A stretch of 61,258 nt of DNA from a virus: positions 1 to 61,258 of the IMG/VR virus record IMGVR_UViG_3300035204_001041; one strand, 5' to 3'. A model generated the notes under the pieces. The model was not told the origin of the DNA, searched no databases, and saw only the letters and a list, made by a program, of their open reading frames with translations. Positions 7,415-59,989 of this stretch are shown here, piece by piece. The position numbers and the translations under genes are program-made. How positions within the stretch are numbered: position 1 is the first letter of the stretch; each line of letters begins with the position of its first letter.

Positions 7415-7460
7415 ACGCCCTCCTACATGCGCTTGTTCATGGTTGCTTGTCGTGCCCCCG

Positions 7461-12236: not shown

Positions 12237-12348
12237 TTTGTCTCCCGGTTTCTTTATCTTTCTGTGCGGCACCAGCAGCGAAACCCCAGCCAAGGCCACA
12301 GAAGACCCCCATGATGTACGCTGCAATGAAAATCTGTGCTGTACTCAT
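12214..12348 (-). CDS. 44-residue single-pass membrane peptide
   Basis: Begins MSTAQIFIAAYIMGVFCGLG and continues WGFAAGAA before a charged tail, so it has one transmembrane segment with a small-residue face. The start overlaps the upstream stop (ATGA) with AGGAG nine nt upstream. It overlaps the sigma-like gene by 23 nt in another frame. The coupling supports a real gene; the function is unknown. Confidence 0.55.
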   Translation of the reverse strand: MSTAQIFIAAYIMGVFCGLGWGFAAGAAQKDKETGRQNGSWKQR

Positions 12349-12935
12349 CCGTCTACACTCCTGTTCCAGTTGAACTCTTCATGCGAGTGGGGATCAGCCC
12401 TCCACTCATCGGTTCCGTCATATTCGTGGCTTACAAGGTTTAGAACCCAAGCCTCTTCGTTGCCCAATGCCTTCCACCCATGGACTACTCCAGGGGGAAT
12501 ACAAACTGTTTCTGGTGATCTGGTCGCCTCAAGCACCTTCGTTTCAAAGGTAAACAAAGGCCTGTCGTTCATAAATGCTTTCCTGGCATCCCAGGTCACA
12601 AGCATGATCTTGCCACGCACGCAAAAGAATCTATCTGTCTGCTTCAAGTGGCAGTGCCAGCCTTTTACGACGCCCGGTAGGGTCGTGCTCACATATGCTT
12701 GGCCTACTGCACGGTCAGAATTGTTGAATTCCCAAGAAGCCCTCCAAAGCTCTATTAGGGAACCCCTTGTGTCTGTGTGCCACTTCAATGGAAAGCTTGG
12801 TGCCTGCTCACCTTCTGCGTCCGGGAAATGTATCCCCTTGATCGGCGCATCGTGAGCTTGCTTATAACCAAGACCACCCAGGAACTTCTTGAAAGAAGCG
12901 CACGTTGTATCAAGCAAATTTACATCTATCTTCAT
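12345..12935 (-). CDS. RmlC-like sugar epimerase (cupin)
   Basis: 196 residues. The pattern DTRGSLIELWR, TLPGVVKGWHCHLKQTDRFF, IPPGVVHGWKALG and YDGTDEWRADP follows dTDP-4-dehydrorhamnose 3,5-epimerase (RmlC/RfbC) in order and spacing, including the metal or catalytic histidines in GWHCH and VVHGW. The family acts on dTDP-sugar for rhamnose or related sugars. Phage copies are uncommon; it may make a sugar for virion or DNA decoration or alter host surface sugars. No partner RmlA, B or D is seen here. Confidence 0.7.
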   Translation of the reverse strand: MKIDVNLLDTTCASFKKFLGGLGYKQAHDAPIKGIHFPDAEGEQAPSFPLKWHTDTRGSLIELWRASWEFNNSDRAVGQAYVSTTLPGVVKGWHCHLKQTDRFFCVRGKIMLVTWDARKAFMNDRPLFTFETKVLEATRSPETVCIPPGVVHGWKALGNEEAWVLNLVSHEYDGTDEWRADPHSHEEFNWNRSVDG

Positions 12936-13345
12936 GGGTGAACTAACCTAATAGGGATGATTTCAATGGATGGTGGTTCGTTATAAATCTCTTGCCACCT
13001 GTTTCTAAGCACAGCGTAGACATTGCCTTTCGCGGTAGGGCCGCCTTTAAGAATCGCCCACATCCCGGCTTCAGCAGCCCAGCGCACATCGGGATCTTGC
13101 AAGGCGCTCGCGTATAGTGCCCTCAAACGGCGATCTAAGCGCGTCCAGCGGTTGGCCCACCGTGCAACCCTGGCAAGATCGGTGTGAGCTACACAGCCGC
13201 CTTCTGACAGGGCCATACGCACGTCCTCAATAAAAGCCCCAACAGGCTCCCAGTGAGACAAATCTTCAACTTGCGACACAAGGGTCAGCAGAGCCATACG
13301 ACTTGCAGTTTCGTTCGCTGCCCAACGCTCATCAAGGGATGACAC
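12932..13345 (-). CDS. Hypothetical helical protein
   Basis: 137 residues, GTG start at 13345 after AGGAGGTGGCAA (chosen over a longer frame lacking a ribosome-binding site). It is helical, with several Trp-Arg repeats (RWANRWTRLDRRLRALY). It overlaps the end of the VWA gene by 14 nt, so it is probably made with the MoxR-VWA pair. No family is recognised. Confidence 0.55.
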   Translation of the reverse strand: MSSLDERWAANETASRMALLTLVSQVEDLSHWEPVGAFIEDVRMALSEGGCVAHTDLARVARWANRWTRLDRRLRALYASALQDPDVRWAAEAGMWAILKGGPTAKGNVYAVLRNRWQEIYNEPPSIEIIPIRLVHP

Positions 13346-14861
13346 TTGCCACCTCCTCTTCGCGTGAGATCTGGTCCACATCAACGATCTTGTCGCACAG
13401 TTGGTTCAGCGCATATGAAAAGCTCCCGCCACCAACCGCAAGACCATAAACCCTCGTATTGTTCTCTTCCTTGGCCCACTCAAGCTTCTCCATAACTGAT
13501 GGGCTGATCTCCGCTTCACCGTCAGTAACGATCAGGAAGTCTGATTTTGAAGAGTACAGGTTTAGCTCAGCATTCAAAGTAATCGCTGCCTCAAAGGGCG
13601 CGTCAAAAGAAGTGCCGCCCTGAAACCGCATGCTGGTCAGTGCAATGCATACTTGGGGAGCACCACCCTCAAGCTTGGTGCTTTCCGTCAGCTTCTTCAC
13701 GTCGTACTCAAAGGCTTCGCCTTTAGCGTTGATCGAGTAAACGAAAGTCACCCGCCTATTGAAGCCAATGAAGGTAATGGGGCGCTTTTCTTTCTGTGCG
13801 ACTCCCGCACAACTCAACGCGATAGCTGAAGCCCACAATCCTGCATCGCATGAATCCATGCTTCCGCTGGTGTCAACCATTACGATCATTGGCCCACGGC
13901 CTTCTTTCTTTACACCTTCCATGCGGTACTCAGCCATCTTGCGCTCGGCAAGCTTAGCAAGCTGATAGGTCCTCATCTGTGGCACTTTCAGCATTGCCAT
14001 TTCGCTTGGCAGCATACGCATGAAGTCATCGCCACGAGTCACACCAGTAATGACACCAACACCGCTCGGATCTCTTTCTTTACGGGAAGCCTCTGACAAC
14101 CGGCGCAACCTTCCAGCAAGCTTCATCAACTTCTTTAGGCGCTCATTTCGGCTAAGCTTCTTTGCCAACTCAAGGCGCGTATTGTCTTGCTGCGCAAACA
14201 TCGCAGGGGCTTGGTCATAACCAGGCTTCAGCCCAGCCATTGCTGACTTCACTTCTGCCGCCTCTTGGCCTGCATCATTGCAAGCTGACCTCATTGCTGC
14301 ACGAAACTCATCTGTTCCAGAAGGGGTTTGCTCCTGGCCTGCTGGTGAAGGCGGCATCCCTAAAAGCTCTTGTGCCTTTCTCTTTTGCTCTTGCTTCTTC
14401 TCTTCCTTCATACCCTCAAGCAACGAAGGCAAAGCCTTATTGAAGGCTTCCATCATCTTTCCGGTAGCCAGCGCAGTGATGTCAGGATCGCCCTGGACTT
14501 GCCTACGCAATGATTCAAACTCTGGCAATGAAGAGATAAGCTCGTGCGCACGCTGAGTAACCTCAGTTCCAGTACCGGGGTTCTCAACTTGCTCTAAGTC
14601 CCTGGAAGAGTAAAGCTTAGAAAACACCTCTTTAGTCGTTCCCTCGCTAACCCGGCTTATACGCTGAGCTTCTTTAGCGAAATCAACGCCAGTGTTGGAA
14701 CCCAACACATCCCCTTTCAAGATATTAGACATCCTGGTAACTGAAATGCCAAGTTCAGGCACCGACTGGATGCGGCTCTCACTTAGGTAGTGGAGCCACT
14801 TATCCAAGCGCAGGGTCAGGTCTAGATCCTGAGTACTATTATCCCACTCTGAAAAGCTCAT
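13332..14861 (-). CDS. VWA-domain protein (CoxE/CobT/ViaA-like), MoxR partner
   Basis: 509 residues. The helical N-terminal half is rich in Lys/Glu. The C-terminal half is a von Willebrand A domain, with MIDAS motif MIVMVDTSGSMD (about residues 325-336), the second-site threonine region GGTSFDAPFEAA (about 414-425) and FLIVTDGEAE (about 446-455). VWA proteins of this type act with a MoxR AAA ATPase as metal-dependent adaptors that remodel or insert cofactors into targets. The MoxR gene is immediately upstream. TAGGAGATAACA precedes the ATG, and the promoter at 14882 lies between the two genes. The target is unknown. Confidence 0.8.
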   Translation of the reverse strand: MSFSEWDNSTQDLDLTLRLDKWLHYLSESRIQSVPELGISVTRMSNILKGDVLGSNTGVDFAKEAQRISRVSEGTTKEVFSKLYSSRDLEQVENPGTGTEVTQRAHELISSLPEFESLRRQVQGDPDITALATGKMMEAFNKALPSLLEGMKEEKKQEQKRKAQELLGMPPSPAGQEQTPSGTDEFRAAMRSACNDAGQEAAEVKSAMAGLKPGYDQAPAMFAQQDNTRLELAKKLSRNERLKKLMKLAGRLRRLSEASRKERDPSGVGVITGVTRGDDFMRMLPSEMAMLKVPQMRTYQLAKLAERKMAEYRMEGVKKEGRGPMIVMVDTSGSMDSCDAGLWASAIALSCAGVAQKEKRPITFIGFNRRVTFVYSINAKGEAFEYDVKKLTESTKLEGGAPQVCIALTSMRFQGGTSFDAPFEAAITLNAELNLYSSKSDFLIVTDGEAEISPSVMEKLEWAKEENNTRVYGLAVGGGSFSYALNQLCDKIVDVDQISREEEVASVIP

Positions 14862-14881
14862 TGTTATCTCCTACTGATAAC

Positions 14882-14910
14882 AGTATACCACGCGCCGCGT
14901 TAGAAGAAAA
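14882..14910 (-). promoter_or_regulatory. Promoter, CTAACGCGGCGCGTGG then TATACT
   Basis: Family motif between the MoxR and VWA genes. It lets the VWA gene and its downstream genes be transcribed independently of MoxR. Confidence 0.7.
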
Positions 14911-14932
14911 CTTCACGCGGCATTAAGTATGA

Positions 14933-16141
14933 CTACTTGATACCGTATGCTCCGGTGTTCTTGGCAATAGCCCTTGCAACTGATTTCTGCATGGCGACAA
15001 GCTTATCAACAGCCACCTTGTACTCGTAATCATTCAAGTCAATCGCACTTGAATCCGCGATACGCTCAAGCTCTGTTTGGCCCATCTTGATGACTTGAAG
15101 TACAGCACCAAGGTGGTCAACGCCAGGAGCCTTGAGATCACAGTCGCGGTAACGCTGAGTCACGCCATCCATAACCTTGGCAACCTTCACGATTCCAGGG
15201 CATGCATGGTTCGCTACCGCTTCATACACTACCGGGCGATCTTCATGGCGGTTCCACATCACTCGCGTCAACACCATTAGATCTCTATCCGTTGCGATAG
15301 TGCGGCCTTCAAGCACTGCATGCGCTTTCACCGCTGCAAGACATTGTGCCCAACGACGATCACTCAGCTTCACGCCAGACTTGATCTCCAAGCTATCCCA
15401 AATGTCCAACATGGTTTCAATCACGCTTTCAGGGATCACAACCTTTGATGTCACTTCTTGAAGAAGCTCTCTCGTTTCCACACTCATCTGCTCGCTTACA
15501 TCTGGCTTAGCCCCATTGCGGGACATCATAAGAAGCTCGCGGCGTGCCCCACGGTCACTAAGGTAATCCGTCCACTCCCTAAACATGAAGCGATCATAAA
15601 GAGCATCTAGAATGCTTGACTGTGGGTACTCGTTTGAGCAGCCAATAATCGTCTCAAGAGGCATACCGATACGATCTGCGCCTTGGTCAAACTCCCGCTC
15701 CTCAGCGGCAGTGAGCAATGCATTCAGGATTGGATCGGATCCCTTGAAGATTTCATCCTTCAAAGCAAACTTCGCATGCGGCAGAAAGCCGTCCGTCTTG
15801 CGCACATACTCACCCTTCTCAAACTTGCCGAAGTCCAGCGGGCCAAACAAGTCTTCAGGAAGAGTAAAAGCAGTAATCAAGCGCTTGAATACATCATCCC
15901 CTTGGAAGTTGAAAGCCTTGGCGATCAAGTAAAACATCGTTGTTTTCGCCGTACCCGGAGGCCCAAGGAAAAGAACGTGCCGCTTGCAAAGAAGCGCCAT
16001 GATCGCGCTATCAATCTCTTGGTTCCTATTGATCAGCGCTGACTTCAGTTCTGTACGAACCGTCATCAAAGATTGGTATGCGTCGTGGGCAGGCAAATCG
16101 CCCCCGAGCAAGTTGTGAGTTTCAAGGTTCTTAGTACCCAT
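14933..16141 (-). CDS. MoxR-family AAA+ ATPase (CobS/RavA-like)
   Basis: 402 residues. Walker A is FLGPPGTAKTT (about residues 57-67), a Walker B-like FALKDEIFKG follows (about 126-135), then IIGCSNEYPQSS (sensor 1 region) and ALYDRFMFREW (arginine-finger region). This is the MoxR class: hexameric AAA+ chaperones that pair with VWA proteins. TAGGAGGGCATC precedes the ATG. The gene is flanked by family promoters at 14882 and 16175. What the pair remodels in this phage is not evident. Confidence 0.8.
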   Translation of the reverse strand: MGTKNLETHNLLGGDLPAHDAYQSLMTVRTELKSALINRNQEIDSAIMALLCKRHVLFLGPPGTAKTTMFYLIAKAFNFQGDDVFKRLITAFTLPEDLFGPLDFGKFEKGEYVRKTDGFLPHAKFALKDEIFKGSDPILNALLTAAEEREFDQGADRIGMPLETIIGCSNEYPQSSILDALYDRFMFREWTDYLSDRGARRELLMMSRNGAKPDVSEQMSVETRELLQEVTSKVVIPESVIETMLDIWDSLEIKSGVKLSDRRWAQCLAAVKAHAVLEGRTIATDRDLMVLTRVMWNRHEDRPVVYEAVANHACPGIVKVAKVMDGVTQRYRDCDLKAPGVDHLGAVLQVIKMGQTELERIADSSAIDLNDYEYKVAVDKLVAMQKSVARAIAKNTGAYGIK

Positions 16142-26121: not shown

Positions 26122-26146
26122 GAACACCAGTAGTGGAGTAGTGTTA

Positions 26147-27718
26147 GTGACTGCCAAAGCAGCCACATTGCAATCGTATCACCCTAGCGTACTGTCAACA
26201 ACTATTGCTGGCTCTACGCTCGGTGAAAACAGCCCATTAGTAGGCTTACAATCCAGTAATGCCTACAATCTAGCGTGCCCGGACACATCTGTATCTCGGG
26301 CTAATCGTGCTTTGTACTGGGTTTTCGGCGAACTCAAGCAAAACACCATGCAAAAGCTCAAAAATGGCTTCTGGTACATAGAAATATGCCCAACTTATTT
26401 ATCCTCTATTGAAGGCATCAGTAGGTGGGCAGCAAGCGAAGCTTGGCACCAATCAAAGAAAGCAATCCCATGGCTTGAAGTAAAGCTCAAAAGTGCAGTT
26501 GCTATGGGTGCAAAGATCAGGAGCCTAAAACGAGGGCAAAAGTGGGGTAGGCACCTACTTCTCACTGAAGATGGTAAGAAATCTTACATTAGGTGTGCAA
26601 AACTTTGCCGTGATGCAGGTTTTTTTGAAGCCTTTGGTGAGCCGCACAATGCTCAACAGCCCTTAGTTGGGGTGGTTGGCCTGCCACACGCACTAAGAGG
26701 CTTACAGTGCGATTCAGGCAAGCGTACTGCCGCCGTTAGCTGCCCGCTTGGGCACCAACACAAACACGCAGATAAATCACCTTCACTTATTTTGTGGCGC
26801 AATGGCTCAAGCCCTACAGGGGGAGCAAAGTGCTTCACTTGCGGGGCCAAGTTTGCGGTTCGCTACAACCAGCAAAATGCACAACTATACACCCCCAGAT
26901 TAGAGAAGGTTAAAAGCGCCCAAACACCCAAAACCGCGCCTTTTTTTAGTCACCAGCACAATAAAAACCTAATAGGTTGTAAAGGTACTCCTATAGGCGG
27001 TCATGTTGCTACTACGGATCGTTCTTATAGGCATGTTGGGGCTAGGTTATTTGGGGTGTGTGTTGACGGCTCCGCTCAAACAAAGCGGTCCATTGGCTCA
27101 GGGCTAAAAGGCGGCCCAATACAGGCCCTAAAATGGTCCGAAAACAGGAGTAAAGGCGAATCAGCGCGTGGAAAAGCCAACTTATTGAGTAGCTGCATTG
27201 ATTTAGACCTTACAAAGCAAAGCAAACACTGGTCACCAACATCTCTGGTATCTGTTTCATCCATGCGCCCGTCTGAATGGGTCAATGTTGGCCCCTATAA
27301 AAGACCATCTAAGTGGACTGCTGCACGCCAAAAGTGGCTTCTGTTTGATTTGGACGACATATGCCTAGAAAACGCCGAAAAAACACTACCAAATAGCATT
27401 TTAGAGCTTTTTGGCGGACATGATGAGTTTACTGGAACTGCGGCTGTTGTACAGACTGGCCCTGTTGGCCTTCAAATATGGGTAGAGCTAAAAAATGAGC
27501 GATTTAGCCCTGATTCTTGGTTTTCCCAAGAAAATGTCCGCTCTTGGTACAGATCAATAGGAAGCGCGATCTTGAAAAAAGCACAAGAAAGCGGCTGTTT
27601 GGGTGGAAAAGTAGACATGGCAAGCTGCGCACCTGGCAGGTTTGGAAGAAGGCCAGGGTGGAGGCTATTGCCTGATGGGAATGTCTTTAGATCGAGTCTT
27701 TTGGGTGTGAAAAACTAA
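26147..27718 (+). CDS. Zinc-finger plus primase-polymerase-like protein (lone plus-strand gene)
   Basis: About 523 residues from a GTG at 26147 (GTG at 26141 also possible; GGAG at 26134). Numbering is from 26141. C201, H205/H207/H209 and C231-F-T-C234 form a zinc-finger-like group resembling primase zinc domains. The C-terminal third shows an archaeo-eukaryotic primase-like order: LLFDLDDI (D403, D405), VVQTGPVGLQIW (about 437-447, where the usual motif-II His is Gln), D492, and CAPGRFGRRPGW (about 496-507) resembling the RLPG motif of these primases. Function is inferred; a degenerate or distant primase, or an unrelated fold, is possible. It converges on the cupin gene with a 4-nt overlap. 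Confidence 0.55.
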   Translation: MTAKAATLQSYHPSVLSTTIAGSTLGENSPLVGLQSSNAYNLACPDTSVSRANRALYWVFGELKQNTMQKLKNGFWYIEICPTYLSSIEGISRWAASEAWHQSKKAIPWLEVKLKSAVAMGAKIRSLKRGQKWGRHLLLTEDGKKSYIRCAKLCRDAGFFEAFGEPHNAQQPLVGVVGLPHALRGLQCDSGKRTAAVSCPLGHQHKHADKSPSLILWRNGSSPTGGAKCFTCGAKFAVRYNQQNAQLYTPRLEKVKSAQTPKTAPFFSHQHNKNLIGCKGTPIGGHVATTDRSYRHVGARLFGVCVDGSAQTKRSIGSGLKGGPIQALKWSENRSKGESARGKANLLSSCIDLDLTKQSKHWSPTSLVSVSSMRPSEWVNVGPYKRPSKWTAARQKWLLFDLDDICLENAEKTLPNSILELFGGHDEFTGTAAVVQTGPVGLQIWVELKNERFSPDSWFSQENVRSWYRSIGSAILKKAQESGCLGGKVDMASCAPGRFGRRPGWRLLPDGNVFRSSLLGVKN

Positions 27719-28056
27719 ACCCTTCCATAGTCATCTTGAATACGCACTACATCACCATCATCGTGTGTGCTTACTTCAGCAACAATGACGTAGTTACAAC
27801 CTTCCGCACAACCCATTCTATGCACGCTTTCAGGGGGGATATGTGCCCCCATGCCTGGATCAAGCTCTGTATGCGCCCCATCTTGCTCGAAAGCTAAACG
27901 GCCATGCAACACGATAATCGTTTCCTCTTTGCGTTGATGGTACTGCAATGAAAGCCGTTGACCTTTTTCAATGCGCATCAACTTCCCAGTATATTTCCCA
28001 GGAACATCAGCCCATATCAATGTGCTTCCCCAAGGTGAATGTTTAGTTTCACCCAC
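27715..28056 (-). CDS. Cupin, sugar-phosphate-isomerase-like
   Basis: 113 residues. RLSLQYHQRKEETIIVLHGR (about 34-53) and the later IPPESVHRM match the two histidine-bearing cupin motifs of the mannose-6-phosphate isomerase / mannose-1-P guanylyltransferase C-terminal domain. It could act on a sugar nucleotide or bind a modified base or sugar. It is last in the modification operon. GTG start with AAGGTGATCG. Confidence 0.7.
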   Translation of the reverse strand: MGETKHSPWGSTLIWADVPGKYTGKLMRIEKGQRLSLQYHQRKEETIIVLHGRLAFEQDGAHTELDPGMGAHIPPESVHRMGCAEGCNYVIVAEVSTHDDGDVVRIQDDYGRV

Positions 28057-29092
28057 CGATCACCTTCCCCTTAAGGCTTGGCCAAATTTTCCGAGACAAC
28101 TTGTTTCTTTGCGGTTTGTTGTGGACGTTTTCTACTGTTTCTAAATCAGCCTTGTTTGGTAGGGATAATTTAGGCAAAAGACCAGCCCTGGTGCCGCTTT
28201 TAGCATTGCATCTATCACAAGGGCTAAAGCCACGTTCCTTTTGCTGTAGGAACTTACGGGCCGCAGTAAACTCTGGCCCCCACCAAATGCTGTGAAGCGT
28301 TCTTTCTTTCACATTTCCACAGGTGTACTCATGGCCCCAGTCCATGCAGCAGATATTGACGTTCCCGTTGTAGCAAACGGTGATTTCCCTAAATGGCTGC
28401 GTACAAGTCCTGCTGTATGGCTCATCAGGGATCGGCTGATCGGCGGCATTTCCCGCATGGTTCATAAGTGTTCTTGAACCGCTTTCGCCGCTACGAATAC
28501 CAATGTCATCCATAACGATGATTAAACCTGTGATCTTCCTCTTGTAGTTGTAATAGGGCGAGATCCCTTGCGGAATGCACTCATCATAAAAGTCTAAGAC
28601 CTTTACCCTGGAAACTTCGCTTGCAAGTTGCTGTAGCTTGGTTCTTTCAGGCTCATATGTGTCTAAAATCACAATATCAATGCCTGCATCAAACGCTTTC
28701 ATAGCGTGTGTTTCTACGGGGTTTCTGCTTTTTTTATCCCGCATCCATGTTCGACCATTAGTCGTTAGTTGAAACTGCGTATTGGGCAAATATCGCCTAA
28801 AAAGGCCGATTATTTCTTCCCACTCTGGGTGTAGGGTTGGCTCTCCATGCATTGCAAACTCTACGCGAGCATTAGGGCAAAGCTGGGCTAGCTGTTTAGC
28901 GGTAAGTTCAGCAACCTCTATGCCCATGAAGTGGTATGGCTGGCCAACTGCTTCCCTGATCCCATTTAGTCCACAAAAAGTGCAAAGCCGATTGCACCCT
29001 TCTGTCAGTTCTAACTGAACGGACCAAGGCGCATGCAGCCCCTCGCTTTTCCCACTTTTACCGACTTGCTTTTTCTTTTTTAGAATGGGCAT
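28049..29092 (-). CDS. Radical SAM enzyme with SPASM-like C-terminus
   Basis: 347 residues. The 4Fe-4S/SAM motif CNRLCTFC (C-x3-C-x2-C, about residues 34-41) is followed by EFAMHGEPTLHPEWEE and FQLTTNGRTW, typical of the TIM-barrel radical SAM core. A C-terminal Cys cluster (CTQPF, ICCMDWGHEYTCGN, CDRCN) resembles a SPASM auxiliary cluster domain. Such enzymes carry out radical chemistry on peptides or small molecules. In the TET/glycosyltransferase operon, base or sugar tailoring is a reasonable inference. The ATG lacks a strong Shine-Dalgarno; coupling to the upstream gene (1-nt gap) is likely. Confidence 0.8.
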   Translation of the reverse strand: MPILKKKKQVGKSGKSEGLHAPWSVQLELTEGCNRLCTFCGLNGIREAVGQPYHFMGIEVAELTAKQLAQLCPNARVEFAMHGEPTLHPEWEEIIGLFRRYLPNTQFQLTTNGRTWMRDKKSRNPVETHAMKAFDAGIDIVILDTYEPERTKLQQLASEVSRVKVLDFYDECIPQGISPYYNYKRKITGLIIVMDDIGIRSGESGSRTLMNHAGNAADQPIPDEPYSRTCTQPFREITVCYNGNVNICCMDWGHEYTCGNVKERTLHSIWWGPEFTAARKFLQQKERGFSPCDRCNAKSGTRAGLLPKLSLPNKADLETVENVHNKPQRNKLSRKIWPSLKGKVIGG

Positions 29093-29093
29093 T

Positions 29094-29807
29094 TTAGAGG
29101 GCTAAAAGAATCTCGTCTTTTCTCTTAGGGTTGTCCTTTAGCATTCCCGGCCACTTTTCTTTCAGTTGCCGAATGGTTTGCTGTTCCAACTCACTTGTGC
29201 GGTAATCGCACGCGCCGCCCTTGTTTGTCCTGTGAGCAAATGTTGCCAAGACTGCGTTGCATCGGGCGATCACACCATATTTCATCAAATGCTGAAGAGT
29301 ATAGTCATAGTCTTCTTTCAACCTTAGCTCTTCATCAAACCTAAGCGTTGTTGGCTTCACCATAATGAAATCACCAACCACAAACGCACTGGTATGAATC
29401 GGCTTTTTCGGGTTGAAAAAGAAAGCATTAGCGGTAGGCGCTACTCCACACATATATGCACCGGATGTTTCCAATGCATTGGACATGAGGCTTACTGCAT
29501 CATCTAAAGATGCTTCTTTCTTCTCAGCCTTATTAGAGGCAACCTCAAGCCTCCTTAGATCATCACTAAGCTCAATAGCTGGAAGATCATGTGCAAATGC
29601 ATCATCTAAGATGGCATTTCTGCTGCGGCATAGGCCGCCAGACTCAATGACATTAGTGGCACCCATGATTTTGTATGCCTGGGCTTCACCATCCCCCACA
29701 TACCAAGTCATTGGGCCGCAAAGCTTCTCCATTTTTGGGACGTTTTTAGCCCTCTTGTGGGAGATCACACCAATGAATAGTTTCACGCCACCAATGCGCC
29801 TAATCAT
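29094..29807 (-). CDS. TET-associated-type DNA glycosyltransferase (TAGT-like)
   Basis: 237 residues. LFIGVISHKRAKNVPKM opens a GT-A-like fold, GLCRSRNAILDDAF follows, and LRLKEDYDYTLQHLMKYG plus KGGACDYR near the C-terminus match the conserved EDYDxTLQHL and GG-x-x-x-R patterns of the phage TET/JBP-associated glycosyltransferase family. Members are proposed to add sugars to hydroxymethylated pyrimidines in phage DNA. It is four nt overlapped with the upstream radical SAM gene and in the same operon as the TET enzyme. Family match by motif, not by search. Confidence 0.75.
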   Translation of the reverse strand: MIRRIGGVKLFIGVISHKRAKNVPKMEKLCGPMTWYVGDGEAQAYKIMGATNVIESGGLCRSRNAILDDAFAHDLPAIELSDDLRRLEVASNKAEKKEASLDDAVSLMSNALETSGAYMCGVAPTANAFFFNPKKPIHTSAFVVGDFIMVKPTTLRFDEELRLKEDYDYTLQHLMKYGVIARCNAVLATFAHRTNKGGACDYRTSELEQQTIRQLKEKWPGMLKDNPKRKDEILLAL

Positions 29808-31066
29808 GCTTTATCCCCATTATATACATAAATGATATTGCCATTATGGTCTGTGCCATCTGGTTCCATGATCCCTTCAAACATTTTGTATGGAGATTGC
29901 CCGGCATTTGGGTTGTTCCACAACCAATTCATGTAGTCATACATTGTATGATCTAAAAACTTGGCCCTTGCGTCTGTTCCGCGTGTATTGAAGCCAGAAG
30001 CTCTTCTCCACAAGAAGCCTTTCAAGTGATCCATTTCGCCATTCGCGGTAATGTCATCCCAGGTTACTTTCCCGGTTCTCTTACACTTTAGAAGAGCCTC
30101 AGTAAACTGCCCTTTGCTGGCATTATGGTCTTGGCCTAGGCCACAACAATTTGAATCACAACTGCGCTCTTTGAAATGTGCGTCAGAAACATAGAAACGC
30201 ATACCTATTTCTTTACACAAGTCGTCCATTTCATCTATAAATGGTTTTTTGACTTTTCTATTCAATCTCAAATAACCGTGAGCGTAACTATACTTTTTAT
30301 AAAAAGATAAGTAATTAAACCCAGAGGCCCTTGACATTACTTTTAGTTTCTCTTTCAAGCCTTTACTGCGCTGCTCTAAACAGAAAAACTCAGTAGACAT
30401 TGACATAGCCCCGCGTTCGTGGGCTTCCCTAATAAGGTCTAAATGGCCAGGAGATGTGATCCCTATCATAAACGGCCTAAGTCTTAGAATCGCCCCACCA
30501 CAGTTTAAATTCGTTATGTCTTCAATAAGCTTTAGCCTTGCCCGAGGAGGGGGCGTCCCTGGCTCTACAATTTTAGCTTTCCATGTATCTTGAGTAATAA
30601 GGGTGACTTTTACAGTCCATTTAGGATTATTCCTAAATAATTCAGCATACCGTTCGTCCCGAACCCACCACGTTCCCTTTGTGGAAAAGGTTAGTGGGTA
30701 GTCTAACTCTCTCAAGAACCTAAGTATTTCTAAGCCAACGCCGTGTTTTTTTTCTAACGTACAGAATGGATCTGCCATTCCGCCCCACTGCATTACCTTC
30801 TTAGATTTTATATATTCACCAAACTGAGAGGAATCAGGATCTAAGAAATGCTTCTTAAAACTTTTAACATTTACAGCTTTAGGTCTATTTGCTAAATAGG
30901 CTTCTCTTCGACTTGCCCCACATTCTTTTTGGAAGGCAGCGAAGCAATACAAACACCCCCAAGTACAAAGACTGTACTGATCAAATGTCATGGGCATTGA
31001 ACAATCAGCAACCTCATTGCTCCACCTAGGGGAGTGATAATACCCTTTGTCTAGTTCTGGTATCAT
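29804..31066 (-). CDS. Radical SAM enzyme, spore-photolyase-like
   Basis: 420 residues. CTWGCLYCF (C-x3-C-x2-C, about residues 34-42) and the following VMQWGGMADPFC and LTFSTKGTW resemble the DNA-photolyase-like radical SAM branch (SplB-related). That branch includes enzymes acting on DNA bases. A second Cys group (CDSNCCGLG) may hold another cluster. The ATG at 31066 overlaps the ParB stop (ATGA), chosen over the TTG at 31078. Likely function: radical chemistry on a modified pyrimidine; inference from neighbours. Confidence 0.75.
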   Translation of the reverse strand: MIPELDKGYYHSPRWSNEVADCSMPMTFDQYSLCTWGCLYCFAAFQKECGASRREAYLANRPKAVNVKSFKKHFLDPDSSQFGEYIKSKKVMQWGGMADPFCTLEKKHGVGLEILRFLRELDYPLTFSTKGTWWVRDERYAELFRNNPKWTVKVTLITQDTWKAKIVEPGTPPPRARLKLIEDITNLNCGGAILRLRPFMIGITSPGHLDLIREAHERGAMSMSTEFFCLEQRSKGLKEKLKVMSRASGFNYLSFYKKYSYAHGYLRLNRKVKKPFIDEMDDLCKEIGMRFYVSDAHFKERSCDSNCCGLGQDHNASKGQFTEALLKCKRTGKVTWDDITANGEMDHLKGFLWRRASGFNTRGTDARAKFLDHTMYDYMNWLWNNPNAGQSPYKMFEGIMEPDGTDHNGNIIYVYNGDKA

Positions 31067-31743
31067 AATTCTGCCCAACCAAGATCTCTAACTGGGAACA
31101 TTTTTTTATGTTCTAAATTAGATTCATCACCTATATTCAGGCGAGTTTTGATTGCTTGTTCCTCTTTATCACAAGTGTAGACCAATACTATTGTTTTAGC
31201 CCTATCGTCTAAAACGCCATCAATGCGCTCTAGTTTATCTGGTTCAAGATCAAGGCCATCAAATAGACCATTTGGCATATCTAAATTTTCAATTAGAGCA
31301 TCAAACTCATCATTACCCCAACCCAATGTAGTTAGGTCTATATTCCTGCTAGCATCTAGCTCTTGAAGAAGCCCCACAAGTATTTCTGAATCCCAATTTG
31401 CAGCTTCAGATAATTTATTATCAGCAATGGCATACGCATTAGCATCTTCTTCATTTTTAAATTGGTGCTGCCTTACTGGTATTAGTCCTGGGCCTGGAGC
31501 GAAAGGGGGGGTAAATTCTGGGTCCTTTTCTAAAAGTAATTTAAGCGCTGCCATTCTGGTGTGGCCAGCTACCAGTCGATTTTTGCCTTCCCAAACCACA
31601 ATTGGGGATACGAATCCAAATCGTTTAATTGATTCTGCAACAGCGGGAATTGCTTCGGTATTGTCTCTTGGGTTCCTATCCCAATCAACAAATTGATCTA
31701 ACGGCAACCATTCGGCGGCTGCCAATATTTTAGCCTTACCCAT
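31063..31743 (-). CDS. ParB/Srx-like protein (copy 1)
   Basis: 226 residues. The N-terminal ParB-like fold: WLPLDQFVDWDRNPRDN, SIKRFGFVSPIVVWEGKNRL, VAGHTRMAALKLL (about 67-79), then NAYAIADNKLSEAANWD. This is the ParB-N/sulfiredoxin-like domain common in phages next to DNA modification genes. The C-terminal extension is unrecognised. Start after AGGAACATTAA; overlaps both neighbours. Confidence 0.75.
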   Translation of the reverse strand: MGKAKILAAAEWLPLDQFVDWDRNPRDNTEAIPAVAESIKRFGFVSPIVVWEGKNRLVAGHTRMAALKLLLEKDPEFTPPFAPGPGLIPVRQHQFKNEEDANAYAIADNKLSEAANWDSEILVGLLQELDASRNIDLTTLGWGNDEFDALIENLDMPNGLFDGLDLEPDKLERIDGVLDDRAKTIVLVYTCDKEEQAIKTRLNIGDESNLEHKKMFPVRDLGWAEL

Positions 31744-32614
31744 TTAATGTTCCTCGTTCTTTAGCTTTTGCAAGCTCACCTTCAGGAGAATCACACCCTA
31801 AAATCCCTTCACGGTAATAATGAACAACCGAGATTCTCTCCCAATCCACCTGTTTTTCACCAACAGTATCGTAAGGGGGTACGTTCCCATGCCAAACGCA
31901 AGGGTTGAAAACGATTACGTCGCCATGCCGCAGATCAACAGCGAACCTGTATTCTGGAATAACTAGCTCAAAGCCTTTGTATTCGCCCTTACGAAAGCAA
32001 AGCAGGCAGCCCATTCCATCTTTCAAATCACCGCCATCTTGATGGTAAGCAGAAGCAACAGAGTTGTTGATAGTGAGCGTTGTAAATGGAGTTTCTGGGA
32101 TGATCCATGCACTGTGGGCTTTTTCTACATACTCCATCTGCTTCTTGTATTTCGCAGATGAAACACTTTTGAAGACTTTGGCTACTTCCTGCAAACAAGG
32201 CTGTATTTGTTCCCATTTTTCGGGGTGGTGCTTCAAGAAAGCTGTCTGTCTACAGAAAGGGTGCCTTCCACCTTGTGCTTCAAAAAAGCCAGCTACACAG
32301 CTAGAAACATTGCTGGTTCTTGTTTGCTTGGAAAAGGTGCCATCTGGCAATAGCTGCGGAACCCTTGTTTCCCCAGCGTAAACACCCCTGTTGTCGCTCT
32401 TAAAACGCTTCATGTAATGGTAGACAGGGTAAGCCTGATCCATGATTTCATCAGGTATAGCGGCCCGCCGATAGCCGACTAAAAGAGTTCCGTCCGAACT
32501 AAAGACATCACATGATTCAGTTAGAATAAAAGAGTAATGCTCTTTAGGTGGGTGCTTGCCCTTCCAGGGCCGGATCTGTTCTTCCGGTATCTTTGAACGG
32601 ACAACAACCCTCAT
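31736..32614 (-). CDS. TET/JBP-family 2-oxoglutarate Fe(II) dioxygenase
   Basis: 292 residues. The catalytic core (about 165-270) shows FTTLTINNSVASAYHQDGGD with the HxD iron motif (HQD), a beta stretch LVIPEYRFAVDLRHGDVIVF, the distal iron His in CVWHGN, and the 2-oxoglutarate arginine in ERISVVHYYR. This order is that of the phage TET/JBP enzymes, which hydroxylate 5-methyl-pyrimidines in DNA. The N-terminal region (SSCVAGFFEAQ and following helix) also fits. All metal ligands are intact. Whether 5mC or thymine is the substrate cannot be read from sequence. It sits between two ParB-like genes, with GGAGTCTATTAA before the ATG. Confidence 0.85.
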   Translation of the reverse strand: MRVVVRSKIPEEQIRPWKGKHPPKEHYSFILTESCDVFSSDGTLLVGYRRAAIPDEIMDQAYPVYHYMKRFKSDNRGVYAGETRVPQLLPDGTFSKQTRTSNVSSCVAGFFEAQGGRHPFCRQTAFLKHHPEKWEQIQPCLQEVAKVFKSVSSAKYKKQMEYVEKAHSAWIIPETPFTTLTINNSVASAYHQDGGDLKDGMGCLLCFRKGEYKGFELVIPEYRFAVDLRHGDVIVFNPCVWHGNVPPYDTVGEKQVDWERISVVHYYREGILGCDSPEGELAKAKERGTLNG

Positions 32615-33273
32615 TTAATAGACTCCGCTGCCTGCTGTACAGTCAGGTAAACAGTGTCCGTGATGTTGTCAGTATCATGCACTTTAGAGAGCTTGTTTAC
32701 CCACATTTGAAAGATGGGGGCTGTTTGATCATCCAAGAAAAGCTGGACCATACGAACACTGCTGTTGGGCATATGCTCTGGGGTAGCTCCCTCTGGAATG
32801 CCTGGTGCAGCCTGACCAACATACTCTTCCGCTGGTGGCTCTAAGCTAAGTGCCTCAAAGTCTCCTGCAAACTGCGCCAAAAGCCCCTCAATCTCTTCAC
32901 CACTAAAGCCTAGGGAAGTAGGATCAAAGTCATCACTTACATGCGACAGCGCTTGAAGGTGGCTTGCAAGGGTCTGCTCGTCCCAACCTGCCAACTCACC
33001 CGTGCGGTTCAAAGAGATAGAAAGTTTGCGTGCTTGTTCGTCACTTACGTCTAGCAAGACAACATCAACCTTAGACTTTCCAAGGCTTTTCAGGACGCTC
33101 AGCCTTCCGTTTCCTCCAATGACGCGCATAGAGTTGTTTTGAACAACTAAAGGCTCAACCTGACCGTGTTCTTCAAGACTTGCCTTGATGGCAGCAAGGT
33201 TTTTCTCATCGTGAACGCGGGGGTTAGCGTCATCAGGAATCAGGCTATCAATATCTACACTTTGAAAGTTCAT
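32611..33273 (-). CDS. ParB/Srx-like protein (copy 2)
   Basis: 220 residues from the ATG at 33273 (GAGGTGTAT). IDSLIPDDANPRVHDEKNLA, LEEHGQVEPLVVQ, VIGGNGRLSVLKSLG and the C-terminal helical part follow the ParB-N pattern of copy 1, although the two are clearly diverged. It overlaps the TET start. Paired ParB-like genes around a TET gene suggest they act in the same pathway, perhaps as adaptors or nucleotide-using enzymes. Confidence 0.7.
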   Translation of the reverse strand: MNFQSVDIDSLIPDDANPRVHDEKNLAAIKASLEEHGQVEPLVVQNNSMRVIGGNGRLSVLKSLGKSKVDVVLLDVSDEQARKLSISLNRTGELAGWDEQTLASHLQALSHVSDDFDPTSLGFSGEEIEGLLAQFAGDFEALSLEPPAEEYVGQAAPGIPEGATPEHMPNSSVRMVQLFLDDQTAPIFQMWVNKLSKVHDTDNITDTVYLTVQQAAESIK

Positions 33274-33280
33274 ATACACC

Positions 33281-33556
33281 TCAAAAAAAAGAAGAGATCA
33301 AAGCGGCAGCACAACTGCCGACCAATGTACCGATAAGCGAACCAATCATAACTGCTTTGGTGGAAAGCTGGTTTCTTGACTGTTCGTATTCAGGGGGAGC
33401 TAGAACAAATGCCATTTCAGGCATTCCTGCACGCTCTACCACAAAGTGTGAAACCACCGTCCAGCCCTTTTCCATTAGGGCTGCGAGCGCGGGATCTTCT
33501 ACTGTCCGTTTTGGATCAGCCAGAGATATAAAATGAACCGTAAGCCTTTTGCTCAT
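33281..33556 (-). CDS. Hypothetical tail-anchored protein
   Basis: 91 residues. Soluble N-terminal part, then a C-terminal hydrophobic segment (VMIGSLIGTLVGSCAAALIS, about 69-88) ending almost at the terminus, as in tail-anchored membrane proteins. No family is recognised. The ATGA overlap with the upstream gene shows coupling. Confidence 0.55.
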   Translation of the reverse strand: MSKRLTVHFISLADPKRTVEDPALAALMEKGWTVVSHFVVERAGMPEMAFVLAPPEYEQSRNQLSTKAVMIGSLIGTLVGSCAAALISSFF

Positions 33557-33813
33557 TTTGCTCGCCTGGTTCTAATGATTCCTTTGTTGAAAACAGCGGA
33601 CCTTATTCTTCCCCCATAGTGGAAAAACCCTAGCCTCTCATTTGGGGCGCTTGCTTTGTGTCGCTTTTCCATTTTTTGGAATGCGGCTTTGTCAGCAGGA
33701 TTCATTTCTGACCAATGGGCTTCTTGCAACAAGGTGCCAGCCGTGATCTTCAGTGTTTTCTTCACCGAGCCACCCTCAAAAAACACCATGTCTTTTATTG
33801 CTTTATAAGCCAA
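33553..33813 (-). CDS. Hypothetical basic protein
   Basis: 86 residues with a TTG start behind AGGATGAACG. FFEGGSVKKTLKITAGTLL suggests a small beta barrel, and the C-terminus is basic. No family is recognised. It overlaps both neighbours in the modification operon. Confidence 0.55.
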   Translation of the reverse strand: MAYKAIKDMVFFEGGSVKKTLKITAGTLLQEAHWSEMNPADKAAFQKMEKRHKASAPNERLGFFHYGGRIRSAVFNKGIIRTRRAK

Positions 33814-34693
33814 CGTTCATCCTATTAGAAACCTGCACGATGGTTTTCTTGATTACATCTCCATTTAGCTCAAACGCAAAATCTTTCTCTCCATCAACCT
33901 TTTGGGCTTCAATCTGATTGCTTGCGTACATCATTCCAATGGATTCAATCAGATCGTGCCAGCTTGCAGGCCCCCCAATCTTCTCCATTTCTTCTTGATA
34001 AGTACCTAAAAGTTCATCGAAATGGAAGCCGGGTTGTGGCACCACTAAAATAGAAGAGGCAATCTTATATGGCTCTGTGACCTCTATACGGCCAAGCTCA
34101 ATAGTCTCAACCACCAAGGACTGTTCACCTTGCTCAACCACCAAGCCGCAGAAGCTTTGCTCTTCGTCAACTTCGATTAATGCAACTCTTCCGCATAGAT
34201 CGTTTTCAGGCTCTGGTGCTGGCTCTGGCTCGCTTGCGCCAAACAAGTGAAGCTGGTGTGTGTCTAGCGCCAAAGTGATGATTTCATCAAGCTTGTACAC
34301 AAGTGCAGAAGCTGAGTGGGGAAGCAAACCATGCAGGCGAAGCCTTACTACAAGTGCTGACTCCTGCCCATTTACGTTGACAACGCAATGCCTAATGTCA
34401 GCATGGCCAGAAGCAATCTTTTCCGGGGTAGGTGATCCCGCATCAGTAATACTCACATGCAGTAAATCGTAGCCACTACTTGACTTTACGGAACCTTTTG
34501 CGCCCTCCTGTCCAGCACGCCAAGACTGCAAAGCCCCCGGCACATATTGGTTAGCAATGACTGCGTCTGCTTCATCCGTCATATTGAAGGAAATATCAAT
34601 GTCCCAGGCGATCTCCCCGGTTCCATCGCGGCGTGGGGTAGCACGGCACAAACGGCCATCAGCTTTTGTGGGCATTTCTTTTAAGCACAACAT
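33803..34693 (-). CDS. Hypothetical protein, first gene of the modification operon
   Basis: 296 residues. Three regions: an N-terminal alpha/beta part with TRRDGTGEIAWDIDISF-like strands, an acidic Pro-rich linker (EPEPAPEPEND, about 154-164), and a C-terminal beta-rich part. No family is recognised. Start at 34693 with AGGAGAAAGCCA. A terminator-like hairpin (34727-34749) lies just upstream, so the operon probably starts transcription here or is read through. Confidence 0.55.
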   Translation of the reverse strand: MLCLKEMPTKADGRLCRATPRRDGTGEIAWDIDISFNMTDEADAVIANQYVPGALQSWRAGQEGAKGSVKSSSGYDLLHVSITDAGSPTPEKIASGHADIRHCVVNVNGQESALVVRLRLHGLLPHSASALVYKLDEIITLALDTHQLHLFGASEPEPAPEPENDLCGRVALIEVDEEQSFCGLVVEQGEQSLVVETIELGRIEVTEPYKIASSILVVPQPGFHFDELLGTYQEEMEKIGGPASWHDLIESIGMMYASNQIEAQKVDGEKDFAFELNGDVIKKTIVQVSNRMNVGL

Positions 34694-57067: not shown

Positions 57068-59989
57068 TTACAACTCAGGTGTGGTTTCTTCTACTGTACC
57101 ACCAAAGTCTTTCGGCATTGAAAGCTCGTTCTCATACTCAGAGAAATCTTGTGTAGATTCAAGAGCAGCCAAGAAGAGTGCTTGTAGCGCCTCAAAGTCA
57201 ACATCTGTTGGCTTAGGGTTGCCCTCAGCCGCATTTCCAGCCACCGGAAACGGCAAGGTGTATTGAGCCAAAGATGCAAGCTGCTCTTGCAACAGAGCTT
57301 TAAGTGGGTGTGCTGGTGAAAGCCTCTCTTCCGCGCCACTCAACAACGCAAGGCCCTGACGCAAATGCCAGTTAGCAAGCTCTCTAAACCCTAGGTAAGA
57401 GTCGCCAGCCACAACCACTGAGTTCTGGAAGCATTTGCCTGCTTCTTCAATCATCCCGTCGTTCATGTACTGCAAACCAAGCGAGCACCAACTACCAGTG
57501 TTCAGTGGATCATCTTCAATGGTGAGAGCTAACAGCCGGGTATAAAATTCAAGTTTCTCCTGCATTTTATCATCATCTAATCCAAGCCCAATATGATCGG
57601 TTTCAAACGGGGCAAAGCGCACTTGTGGGTGAAGCCCCATGCTGCGCACTTGGTTTAGCCCTTTCTCTACAGTCTCGTGTACACGGCCTGAGTATTTCAT
57701 CACCCCCCCACGATCCAAGAGGAACATTCTTAGGGTTTCGCTGTAGTTGAACGTCTTGTCTTTACGCCAGTTGCGGAACTTAAACATCCAACCCCAAGTG
57801 TTGGAGCATTCAGCCATCCTTCTGATGGAAAGAAGGTACAGGAACTCTTGGTTCCAATGCTCATCATCATCCATAGTAAGGAACCAACGGATCCTGGGGT
57901 CTTCTTTGGCCCTTAGTACATCAAGGGCTGCATTCCTCACTTCAGAAAGATCGTCATTGAAAGGCTTGTAAACCCATTCTGCCCCAAATGTCTCAGCAAC
58001 ATCTTTAAGGCTTTGCTGTGGCTCAGTACCTTCTGGGCCTGTCCACACAAGAACAATCTGATCGCACAGCCCGTAGACGTGATCTAAGAAACGGTAGAGG
58101 CCGCCAAGCTGGCTTTCCTTATGAATAAGCATTGAGAACGCAATGCCATTTCCTGGAACATACGGGCTTAGCTGCATGTTTTCTTCATTGACCAAATGGC
58201 TGTAACCGCCACCAGTGAGCAGCATATCTGGTGATGGATCAATGGTGGTGTAGAACTGGTGTTTGCGTACACGGTCTTGGTGCCTGATGTACCCAAAGTG
58301 CCTGAAGCGGATCCCTGCCACACGCCGAGAACGGGTAGTGACTTCCGGTGAGTTACCGCAATGAAGCCCAACGTCGTTCTCTTTATCAATGCGGCCACCT
58401 GTAATGCGTGCTTTAGCTTCAGGGTGTTTGTTGACCCTCCACAAGCGGCAACCATGCATTCCACTGGTATACCCACTAGTCCAAGGGGGGTCTACCCGGC
58501 AAACCCTGGGTGTATCCCAGTGGTTTAGCCAACCAAAATCCCAAGCATGAACATTGGGGTTGGGGTGGCAAATGAGGCGGCGGAAAAGTGCCCGATCTAC
58601 ACGGTCCTCAAGAAACTCGTCGTGATCAATAGAAAACACCCAATCAGCACCCATGTCTTCAGCCATTTCAATGCTCTTGTTGCGCTCGTCACGCTCATTG
58701 AAATCTCCATCCCATACATCAACAGTAATGGGCACGTCGTGCTCGCACTCCCTTACAGCATGAGCAAGGAACTCTTCCATTGCATTAGAGATGCTGCTTA
58801 GGTTGGACGCGTTTCCACAAGCGCGAATGAGCTTTTGTGAGATCGGGTTTAGGGCTTGCTGGTTGAAGTCGTATGCCCCTTTGATTTCCATTGGGTTGTT
58901 GGTAAGCAATACAGCGAAGCCGTCTACAACCTGTGCGTTTCTACGAACACAATCAAAGAACATAGCAAGATCATGCATAGTGCCGATTTTTACACGCATG
59001 CATGCAATGACTTTCTGATCATCATCATTCGCTGGTGCCCACTTCTTTGCGTACACAGAAGCGTTCATTAGGCCGCGATCCATTTCTGGAAAGTGTTTAT
59101 CTAGTGTTTGGTGGCCTTGGTGGTGGACATAACAATCCGATGCAATGCCAAGCTTCCACCCTTTTCTAACAGCCCGTGCAGCAATATCGTTGTCATCATA
59201 TCCGCCGATACCAAATGCGGGGTCGAGAAAAAAGGTTCCATCTTCCCCTGCTTCAATCAAATCCTGCAAGCATTCACGCTTGTAAGCAACACAGAATCCA
59301 GACAAGAAGTCAGAGTTGAGCACCCGGCCAGTTTTCCCAGCTTCCCATTCTGCTGAAAAGTCATCAAGAACCTTGTGGGATTTGTGCCCGTAAAACTCTT
59401 CTGCTTTCCCTTCAATGTTTCCGGTGGGGATAGATTGAGATCCAGCAACAAATGTTGAAAGAGGCCCAACTAAACCAAGGCGACCGTATGACTCAATTTC
59501 ATCACCCTCGCCGTAGTAATAGGACTCATCCATATCAACTTTGCTTTCAAAGAAAATACGATCAGTGTTTAGCGCAACACCAAACTTCTTGGCCCAGTTG
59601 TGGGTAACTACAACGTCGTCATTCATAATAATGACGTAGGGCGATAGGCTCTTAAGGCTGAATACACCTTCATTTACAGCGCCAACCCAACCTGCTGGTG
59701 CGCCCATGTCGATCCAGTTCAAATCAACAGACTGCTTAACAACCCCGTTTGATCCAAAACCGTTGTACTGTTCACACAAAGCCGCAACTTGGGCTTTAGA
59801 AGCGGAAGCTTCAGCTTTGCCTTCTTCAGTTGGGTTGCACACAACAGTAAGCTTAAATTTAGCTTTAGGTGTCATGCGCAAAATGCGTTCAACTGAAGCT
59901 GAAATAAGCTCCTGTGACCCCATTGTTGGGATGATCACATCAAAGTGATTTTGATCGTCATTAACGAATTGGCTGTCTTCTGTATCCAC
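57068..59989 (-). CDS. Three-domain GT-A glycosyltransferase with TPR tail
   Basis: 973 residues. Domain 1 (about 15-300): FDVIIPTMGSQELISAS, YVIIMNDDVVVTHNWAKKFG, and GIGGYDDNDIAARA match GT2 enzymes with a DxD-like NDD. Domain 2 (about 325-590): KSIEMAEDMGADWVFSIDHD with a DHD metal motif. Domain 3 (about 615-835): FLDHVYGLCDQIVLVWTGPE and WFLTMDDDEHWNQEF with a DDD motif. A helical TPR-like C-terminus (SLGLQYMNDGMIEEAG) follows. Such a size and location inside the virion module are unusual. Substrate unknown: virion glycoprotein or modified DNA. GTG start with AGGAGG. Confidence 0.75.
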   Translation of the reverse strand: MDTEDSQFVNDDQNHFDVIIPTMGSQELISASVERILRMTPKAKFKLTVVCNPTEEGKAEASASKAQVAALCEQYNGFGSNGVVKQSVDLNWIDMGAPAGWVGAVNEGVFSLKSLSPYVIIMNDDVVVTHNWAKKFGVALNTDRIFFESKVDMDESYYYGEGDEIESYGRLGLVGPLSTFVAGSQSIPTGNIEGKAEEFYGHKSHKVLDDFSAEWEAGKTGRVLNSDFLSGFCVAYKRECLQDLIEAGEDGTFFLDPAFGIGGYDDNDIAARAVRKGWKLGIASDCYVHHQGHQTLDKHFPEMDRGLMNASVYAKKWAPANDDDQKVIACMRVKIGTMHDLAMFFDCVRRNAQVVDGFAVLLTNNPMEIKGAYDFNQQALNPISQKLIRACGNASNLSSISNAMEEFLAHAVRECEHDVPITVDVWDGDFNERDERNKSIEMAEDMGADWVFSIDHDEFLEDRVDRALFRRLICHPNPNVHAWDFGWLNHWDTPRVCRVDPPWTSGYTSGMHGCRLWRVNKHPEAKARITGGRIDKENDVGLHCGNSPEVTTRSRRVAGIRFRHFGYIRHQDRVRKHQFYTTIDPSPDMLLTGGGYSHLVNEENMQLSPYVPGNGIAFSMLIHKESQLGGLYRFLDHVYGLCDQIVLVWTGPEGTEPQQSLKDVAETFGAEWVYKPFNDDLSEVRNAALDVLRAKEDPRIRWFLTMDDDEHWNQEFLYLLSIRRMAECSNTWGWMFKFRNWRKDKTFNYSETLRMFLLDRGGVMKYSGRVHETVEKGLNQVRSMGLHPQVRFAPFETDHIGLGLDDDKMQEKLEFYTRLLALTIEDDPLNTGSWCSLGLQYMNDGMIEEAGKCFQNSVVVAGDSYLGFRELANWHLRQGLALLSGAEERLSPAHPLKALLQEQLASLAQYTLPFPVAGNAAEGNPKPTDVDFEALQALFLAALESTQDFSEYENELSMPKDFGGTVEETTPEL

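Follow-up and report, generated by a model that had tools for sequence, protein, structure and literature searches.

Phage TET/JBP-TAGT operons, such as those of Nonlabens phage P12024L and Arthrobacter phage Klevey, are built on a TET-TAGT core, usually accompanied by ParB. TET/JBP dioxygenases require O2, and the phage TETs that have been characterised biochemically act on 5-methylcytosine (5mC). Phage M6 makes a hypermodified thymidine with a hydroxymethylase, a kinase, an aGPT-Pplase/amino acid:DNA transferase (ADDT), a radical S-adenosylmethionine (SAM) enzyme and a pyridoxal phosphate (PLP) enzyme; thymidylate-synthase-type hydroxymethylases are the other known source of 5-hydroxymethyluracil (5hmU). 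Phages of strict anaerobes would need another enzyme to reach 5-hydroxymethyl pyrimidines by post-replicative oxidation. Here we describe a ten-gene strip in a 61,258-base virus record, IMG/VR record IMGVR_UViG_3300035204_001041 (this whole stretch is hereafter the window), which also carries tailed-phage genes for tape measure, tail, endolysin and primase-helicase. The strip encodes a TET/JBP dioxygenase together with a radical SAM enzyme, rSAM2, which elsewhere occurs in place of TET and is a concrete candidate for that oxidation.

To judge from sequence, the strip is very probably a DNA hypermodification operon. An earlier, sequence-only reading of the same DNA had described one overlapping operon with a TET/JBP dioxygenase that retains its HxD, H and R residues, a TET-associated glycosyltransferase, two radical SAM enzymes, two ParB-like proteins and a cupin; these genes are all present, and the ten genes lie on the minus strand between 27,715 and 34,693, each overlapping the next or separated from it by no more than 1 base. 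Gene order is identical in the independent IMG/VR contigs L002 and L003, and L004 lacks only ParB2 and rSAM2. Because the order is kept in independent viral contigs, the arrangement is not due to chance. Outside the ParB2-rSAM2 cassette the operon proteins share 54-85% identity with their counterparts in these three contigs.

Profile searches place the dioxygenase inside TET/JBP (PF12851, E=3.1e-22, 79.0 bits against a curated cut-off of 34.9), and its iron triad (H191xD193, H242) and 2-oxoglutarate arginine (R260) are invariant in an alignment of six phages. ParB1 exceeds the PF02195 cut-off (1e-6; 29.1 bits against 26.3) and matches phrog_620 at 2.7e-39; ParB2 stays under that cut-off (15.6 bits) but is recognised by phrog_620 (E=7.3e-35). 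A ParB gene is found in 71 of 86 TET loci. The glycosyltransferase bears the expected signature (KEDYDYTLQHL and GG in the alignment), matches phrog_842 at 6.6e-8 and clusters with the TAGT-like proteins of 33 loci; against its assignment, PF20691 (E=5.6e-6) reaches 26.9 bits, 0.6 bit below the Pfam cut-off of 27.5. That the phage carries a modified base, as the sequence-only reading also proposed, gains support from the TET and TAGT profiles and from the neighbours of related TETs, which belong to the known base-modification families ADDT and P-loop kinase 3.

The ParB2-rSAM2 cassette and the distribution of rSAM2

ParB2 and rSAM2 form a cassette whose insertion or exchange is recent in comparison with the sequence around it. 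This follows from DNA identities to L002 of 94.8% for ParB2 and 95.2% for rSAM2 (84-93% at four-fold sites, with 93% for ParB2), compared with 61-76% for the remaining operon genes (25-50% at four-fold sites), and from the absence of the cassette from L004, in which TET directly adjoins TAGT. Identity to L002 climbs at the TET/ParB2 overlap (~31,740) and drops just within the TAGT gene (~29,756). The block has a low GC content of about 0.41.

rSAM2 and TET rarely meet. We assembled a sample of 80 viral loci anchored on ADDT, picked to avoid selection on TET or rSAM2, and found TET only in 67, rSAM2 only in 6, both in none and neither in 7 (6 of these 7 on loci under 9 kb); the probability of zero overlap at those margins is 5.7e-6. 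On the ADDT tree, a quick tree with long branches, the rSAM2 label is forced to change at least 6 times, and the pattern therefore does not reflect one old split between TET and rSAM2. None of 22 viral records with rSAM2 contains PF12851, and a search of 21 rSAM2-bearing bacterial genomes gave no PF12851 match either, though it did detect the family in the window, its positive control. TET and a true rSAM2 occur together in the window lineage only.

The two enzymes have the same partners, and in sister phages rSAM2 takes up the position that TET has elsewhere. In viral contigs and bacterial genomes alike, rSAM2 sits in ParB-kinase-ADDT or ParB-TAGT operons, as TET does, and the partner proportions are near-equal between TET and rSAM2 loci. 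Among 33 bacterial-genome rSAM2 loci, 18 have the kinase and 9 TAGT, none has both, and none has TET. rSAM2 and TAGT are even fused as a single open reading frame (ORF), with kinase and ADDT alongside, in L245 (10068-12200), L246 (3627-5690) and L269 (11082-13298). Since rSAM2 occurs in both the kinase/ADDT and the TAGT settings, and in fusions with TAGT, its step should serve both routes. Kinase, ADDT and TAGT each need a hydroxymethyl group, and because rSAM2 accompanies each of them, the simplest reading is that rSAM2 would supply it. Of 21 rSAM2 records that lack TET, only 1 has a thymidylate-synthase-type hydroxymethylase. From these comparisons of gene content we consider it more likely that rSAM2 is a first-step enzyme that normally substitutes for TET. 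In L098, the gene adjoining rSAM2 (7233-8027) has a match to the SAM synthetase N-terminal domain, as would suit a supply of SAM to radical SAM enzymes.

rSAM2 belongs to the radical SAM superfamily by motif, relatives and fold. The CxxxCxYCF motif (C38/C42/C45) is conserved in the family alignment, 11 of 15 relatives match PF04055 (Radical_SAM), and the AF2 model (pLDDT 91) has the radical SAM fold, so that CxxxCxxC and the SAM barrel are both present; the window protein itself has no Pfam match. By NCBIfam profiles it lies close to the uncharacterised PA0069/Rv2578c families (4e-11). Its best structural match is to the spore photoproduct lyases (SPLs; Foldseek 1.5e-7), with a VIA Z of 19.3 over 263 residues at 2.9 A, the next family reaching 16.1. 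SPL acts on a thymine lesion in DNA. A common fold, seen here in a predicted model, does not establish a common function, and PF20903, the SPL sequence family, leaves the window rSAM2 unmatched and reaches 1 of 15 relatives, at 0.011. No rSAM2 match was obtained by tblastn in annotated phages; against PDB sequences, the rSAM2 and TAGT profiles gave chance matches only and M6 gp53 gave none by phmmer.

Radical SAM chemistry uses no O2. We tentatively propose that rSAM2 is the O2-independent counterpart of TET/JBP and activates the 5-methyl group of a pyrimidine. With equal reserve, it may found a family of O2-independent DNA pyrimidine-methyl hydroxylases that replace TET in the phages of anaerobes and that was taken up here as the ParB2-rSAM2 cassette, the sugar then being oxidised by a DNA-acting BtrN-like enzyme. 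The closer bacterial relatives of rSAM2 come largely from gut, rumen and other anaerobic lineages (Bacteroides, Prevotella, Selenomonas, Clostridia, Methanobrevibacter), and TET matches in isolated phages come from hosts such as Pelagibacter, Caulobacter, Nonlabens and Synechococcus. Precedents have been described: BciD is a radical SAM enzyme that hydroxylates a methyl group, BchE replaces the O2-dependent cyclase AcsF and draws on water for its oxygen, and of the two coproporphyrinogen oxidases the radical SAM one works without O2 and stands in for the O2-dependent one (PMC7242693). The likeness of rSAM2 to BciD and to the AcsF/BchE pair is by analogy only; these enzymes act on tetrapyrroles.

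Two other accounts of rSAM2 appear unlikely, to about the same degree. According to the first, this is an ordinary TET/TAGT operon whose two radical SAM enzymes and cupin all elaborate the base after it has been glycosylated, rSAM2 being an isomerase or coupling enzyme like that of phage M6. The gene order, in which TAGT adjoins rSAM2 and the BtrN-like gene, is compatible with this, and the rSAM2 profile is remotely similar to M6 gp53 (hhalign E=7.8e-8; 84 bits). However, rSAM2 replaces TET in the ADDT-anchored sample and accompanies TAGT as well as kinase/ADDT, unlike a route-specific late step. An identity of rSAM2 with the M6-type isomerase was set aside, as the rSAM2 profile scores the window protein at 647 bits and M6 gp53 at 84 bits only. 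L063 is not counted as a locus with TET plus rSAM2, as the radical SAM gene there, which does co-occur with TET, scores 297 bits to M6 gp53 and 88 bits to the rSAM2 profile. Because this gene scores with M6 gp53, the late-acting, M6-type radical SAM enzymes are a different family from rSAM2. The L063 gene (5488-7308) lies beside TET, kinase and ADDT and appears to contain intein-like (Hint) insertions, one of them at the cysteine motif.

The second account holds that TET and rSAM2 are not equivalent, that they are kept apart solely by the scarce gene exchange between the phages of aerobes and those of anaerobes, and that rSAM2 phages draw on an unrecognised hydroxymethyl source. It would agree with the mostly gut or rumen origin of the bacterial rSAM2 matches and with the hosts of the TET phages listed above, but not with the label switching at least 6 times on the ADDT tree, with the near-equal partner proportions, or with the entry of the cassette into a TET operon here.

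Several points nevertheless weigh against rSAM2 as the stand-in for TET. In the ADDT-anchored sample rSAM2 is represented by only 6 loci, which include near-copies, the ADDT anchor protein itself came from an rSAM2 locus, and the hidden Markov models of the families were built from similar loci. A complementary distribution can also arise from separate gene pools, of anaerobe and aerobe phages, without equal function. The contrast in habitats is confounded, metagenome-assembled genomes being gut-heavy and isolated phages aerobe-heavy, and a Bacteroidota-wide host test was uninformative, with TET in 0 of 395 and rSAM2 matches that were nearly all generic SPL-like proteins. Finally, TET and rSAM2 coexist in the window lineage, where strict replacement must invoke redundancy or conditional use.

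Decorator, base and sugar

The TAGT route excludes the kinase route. The 86 TET loci comprise 30 with TAGT alone, 42 with the kinase alone, 2 with both and 12 with neither (Fisher 3e-11). The TET tree requires at least 10 changes of TAGT, TAGT and kinase are opposite in 8.5 of 10 independent tree pairs (median p 0.02), and the window clade, with TAGT, is nested among kinase/ADDT relatives.

As to the substrate, the sequence-only reading had named 5-methyl-pyrimidines in general; the gene content of related records makes thymine somewhat more probable than cytosine. The C5-methyltransferase family PF00145 was not found in the window, in the records G001 (71 kb), G002 and G003, or in three phage genomes whose records were deposited as complete, and it occurs in 2 of 27 related TET records; ADDT is present in 20 of these 27 and the kinase in 19. 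Because PF00145 is scarce while ADDT and kinase are common in the relatives, thymine is favoured as the TET substrate in the window clade. PF18751 and PF18724 are families that we take to belong to thymidine hypermodification pathways. The gene list of M6-like phages supports such roles for both (PMC9476957). Searches of the window, G001 and G003 for hydroxymethylase, ADDT and P-loop kinase 3 (PF00303, PF18724, PF18751) gave no match; PF00303 was found in one related TET record, Cr30. Against thymine, two TET relatives do carry a PF00145 methyltransferase, and IMG/VR records may be incomplete, so that a missing methyltransferase could lie outside them. Least likely of the alternatives is that TET acts on 5mC supplied by a methyltransferase of the host or by an unlisted one of the phage, yielding glycosylated 5-hydroxymethylcytosine (5hmC), and that rSAM2 marks a different pyrimidine: biochemically studied phage TETs do act on 5mC and the records are possibly fragments, but PF00145 is rare or absent as described, also in the complete phage genomes, and the ADDT and kinase partners belong to thymidine pathways.

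The other radical SAM enzyme of the operon matches PF04055 and PF13186 (SPASM), is closest to BtrN (phmmer 4.5e-14; Foldseek 5.9e-12, with a weak model of pLDDT 65), and keeps the CX..GX4C..CX2C twitch, with four cysteines, in addition to the radical SAM core. BtrN removes two electrons from an alcohol (PMC9012708). Profile matches of the cupin are to sugar isomerase cupins (PF07883, PF01050, PF07385, and the C-terminal part of TIGR01479 at 2.4e-7). Oxidation of the sugar by the BtrN-like enzyme is a possibility that we advance with caution; in such tailoring the BtrN-like enzyme would probably be the oxidase and the cupin the isomerase. The low confidence of the BtrN-like model and the other chemistries among BtrN relatives speak against this assignment. 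A scan of viral contigs for the BtrN-like family returned only the known three phages, and BtrN-like enzyme and cupin occur together in the small window clade only. Genes for sugar tailoring stand beside TAGT elsewhere too: a deacetylase adjoins TET-TAGT in phage Klevey, and in L096 a PIG-L deacetylase lies between TAGT and rSAM2. The sequence-only reading had let the radical SAM and cupin steps together elaborate the base; the BtrN-like enzyme and the cupin may indeed tailor the sugar, whereas rSAM2 behaves as a TET substitute.

On the reading we prefer, the operon would act on phage DNA once it has been replicated and turn a pyrimidine, most likely thymine, into a hypermodified base. TET, presumably with ParB1, would use O2 to convert the 5-methyl group to hydroxymethyl; alternatively rSAM2, presumably with ParB2, would activate the same methyl by a 5'-deoxyadenosyl radical, probably followed by oxidation and addition of water. 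With both enzymes, the phage could modify its DNA whether or not oxygen is present. TAGT would then attach a sugar to the hydroxymethyl group, replacing the kinase and amino acid transferase route of sister phages, after which the BtrN-like enzyme may turn a sugar hydroxyl into a ketone and the cupin may isomerise or epimerise the product. As a whole, from the TET/rSAM2 start on thymine to the tailoring by BtrN-like enzyme and cupin, this model is plausible and falls slightly short of probable.

Feature coordinates and neighbouring genes

Table 1. Operon genes, the cassette block and two genes outside the operon, with window coordinates.
Feature	Coordinates	Strand	Basis
Unknown 296-aa protein, first gene of the operon	33803..34693	-	ORF; homologues in related contigs
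Unknown 86-aa protein	33553..33813	-	ORF; counterpart in related contigs
Unknown 91-aa protein, hydrophobic segment at C-terminus	33281..33556	-	ORF; related contigs
ParB1, ParB-like, paired with TET	32611..33279	-	PF02195, phrog_620
TET/JBP 2-oxoglutarate-Fe(II) dioxygenase	31736..32614	-	PF12851; H191/D193/H242/R260
ParB2, cassette gene 1	31063..31743	-	phrog_620; 94.8% nucleotide identity to L002
rSAM2, SPL-like radical SAM enzyme, C38/C42/C45, cassette gene 2	29804..31078	-	AF2, Foldseek, NCBIfam
High-identity block in common with L002 (inserted or exchanged ParB2-rSAM2 cassette)	29756..31743	-	Nucleotide comparison; not in L004
TAGT-type glycosyltransferase	29094..29807	-	PF20691, phrog_842, alignment
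BtrN-like radical SAM enzyme, core C33/C37/C40, twitch C230/C248/C292/C295	28049..29092	-	phmmer, Foldseek, alignment
Cupin, mannose-6-phosphate isomerase/lyxose isomerase type	27715..28056	-	PF07883, PF01050, PF07385, TIGR01479
dTDP-4-dehydrorhamnose 3,5-epimerase/FdtA-like cupin, outside operon	12345..12935	-	PF00908 3.9e-11
973-aa protein with GT2-type glycosyltransferase matches, outside operon	57068..59989	-	PF13641 8.8e-9, PF00535 1.8e-4

The 296-aa protein has a 60% identical homologue at the same position in L002 and L004 and is also found 5' of TET in L011 and L014; the 86-aa protein had no family match in Pfam or PHROG profile searches. The likely start of rSAM2 is the ATG at 31066. 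Outside the operon, the epimerase/FdtA-like cupin and the GT2-type protein, the latter 67% conserved in G001, may be tied to the same pathway.

Between the operon and the helicase, on the opposite (+) strand, lies a 525-aa ORF (26141-27718) that is 48% conserved in relatives. It has no family match, contains a Cys/His cluster and looks primase-like by eye. Elsewhere in the window (13332-16141, minus strand), a MoxR-type AAA ATPase adjoins a 509-aa protein that weakly matches a phage RNA-binding protein family.

Relation to known systems

Beyond the sequence-only reading, the analysis adds the mobility of the cassette, the replacement of TET by rSAM2, and the preference for thymine with the mutual exclusion of TAGT and kinase. 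Phage modification operons would be read as modular, with TET and rSAM2 as interchangeable starters and TAGT and kinase/ADDT as interchangeable decorators. If the role proposed for rSAM2 is true, there would be an O2-independent branch of DNA base oxidation and possibly a new tool for DNA labelling.

Among single enzymes, SPL has the fold closest to that of rSAM2, yet the two share 14% identity, PF20903 is not reached, and the gene neighbourhood is another. BtrN (2-deoxy-scyllo-inosamine dehydrogenase) has the radical SAM core and four-cysteine twitch of the window protein, which differs from it in sharing about 20% identity and in being encoded in a phage operon. Among pathways, that of phage M6 also includes a radical SAM enzyme in its cluster, and both it and the pathway proposed here would build post-replicatively on a 5-hydroxymethyl pyrimidine; the window has TET instead of a hydroxymethylase, TAGT instead of ADDT and kinase, and rSAM2 instead of a radical SAM enzyme of the M6 gp53 type. 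The TET/JBP-TAGT operons of P12024L and Klevey have the same catalytic residues as the window, in which the PF00145 search found no C5-methyltransferase, and to their core the window operon adds ParB2-rSAM2, the BtrN-like radical SAM enzyme and the cupin.

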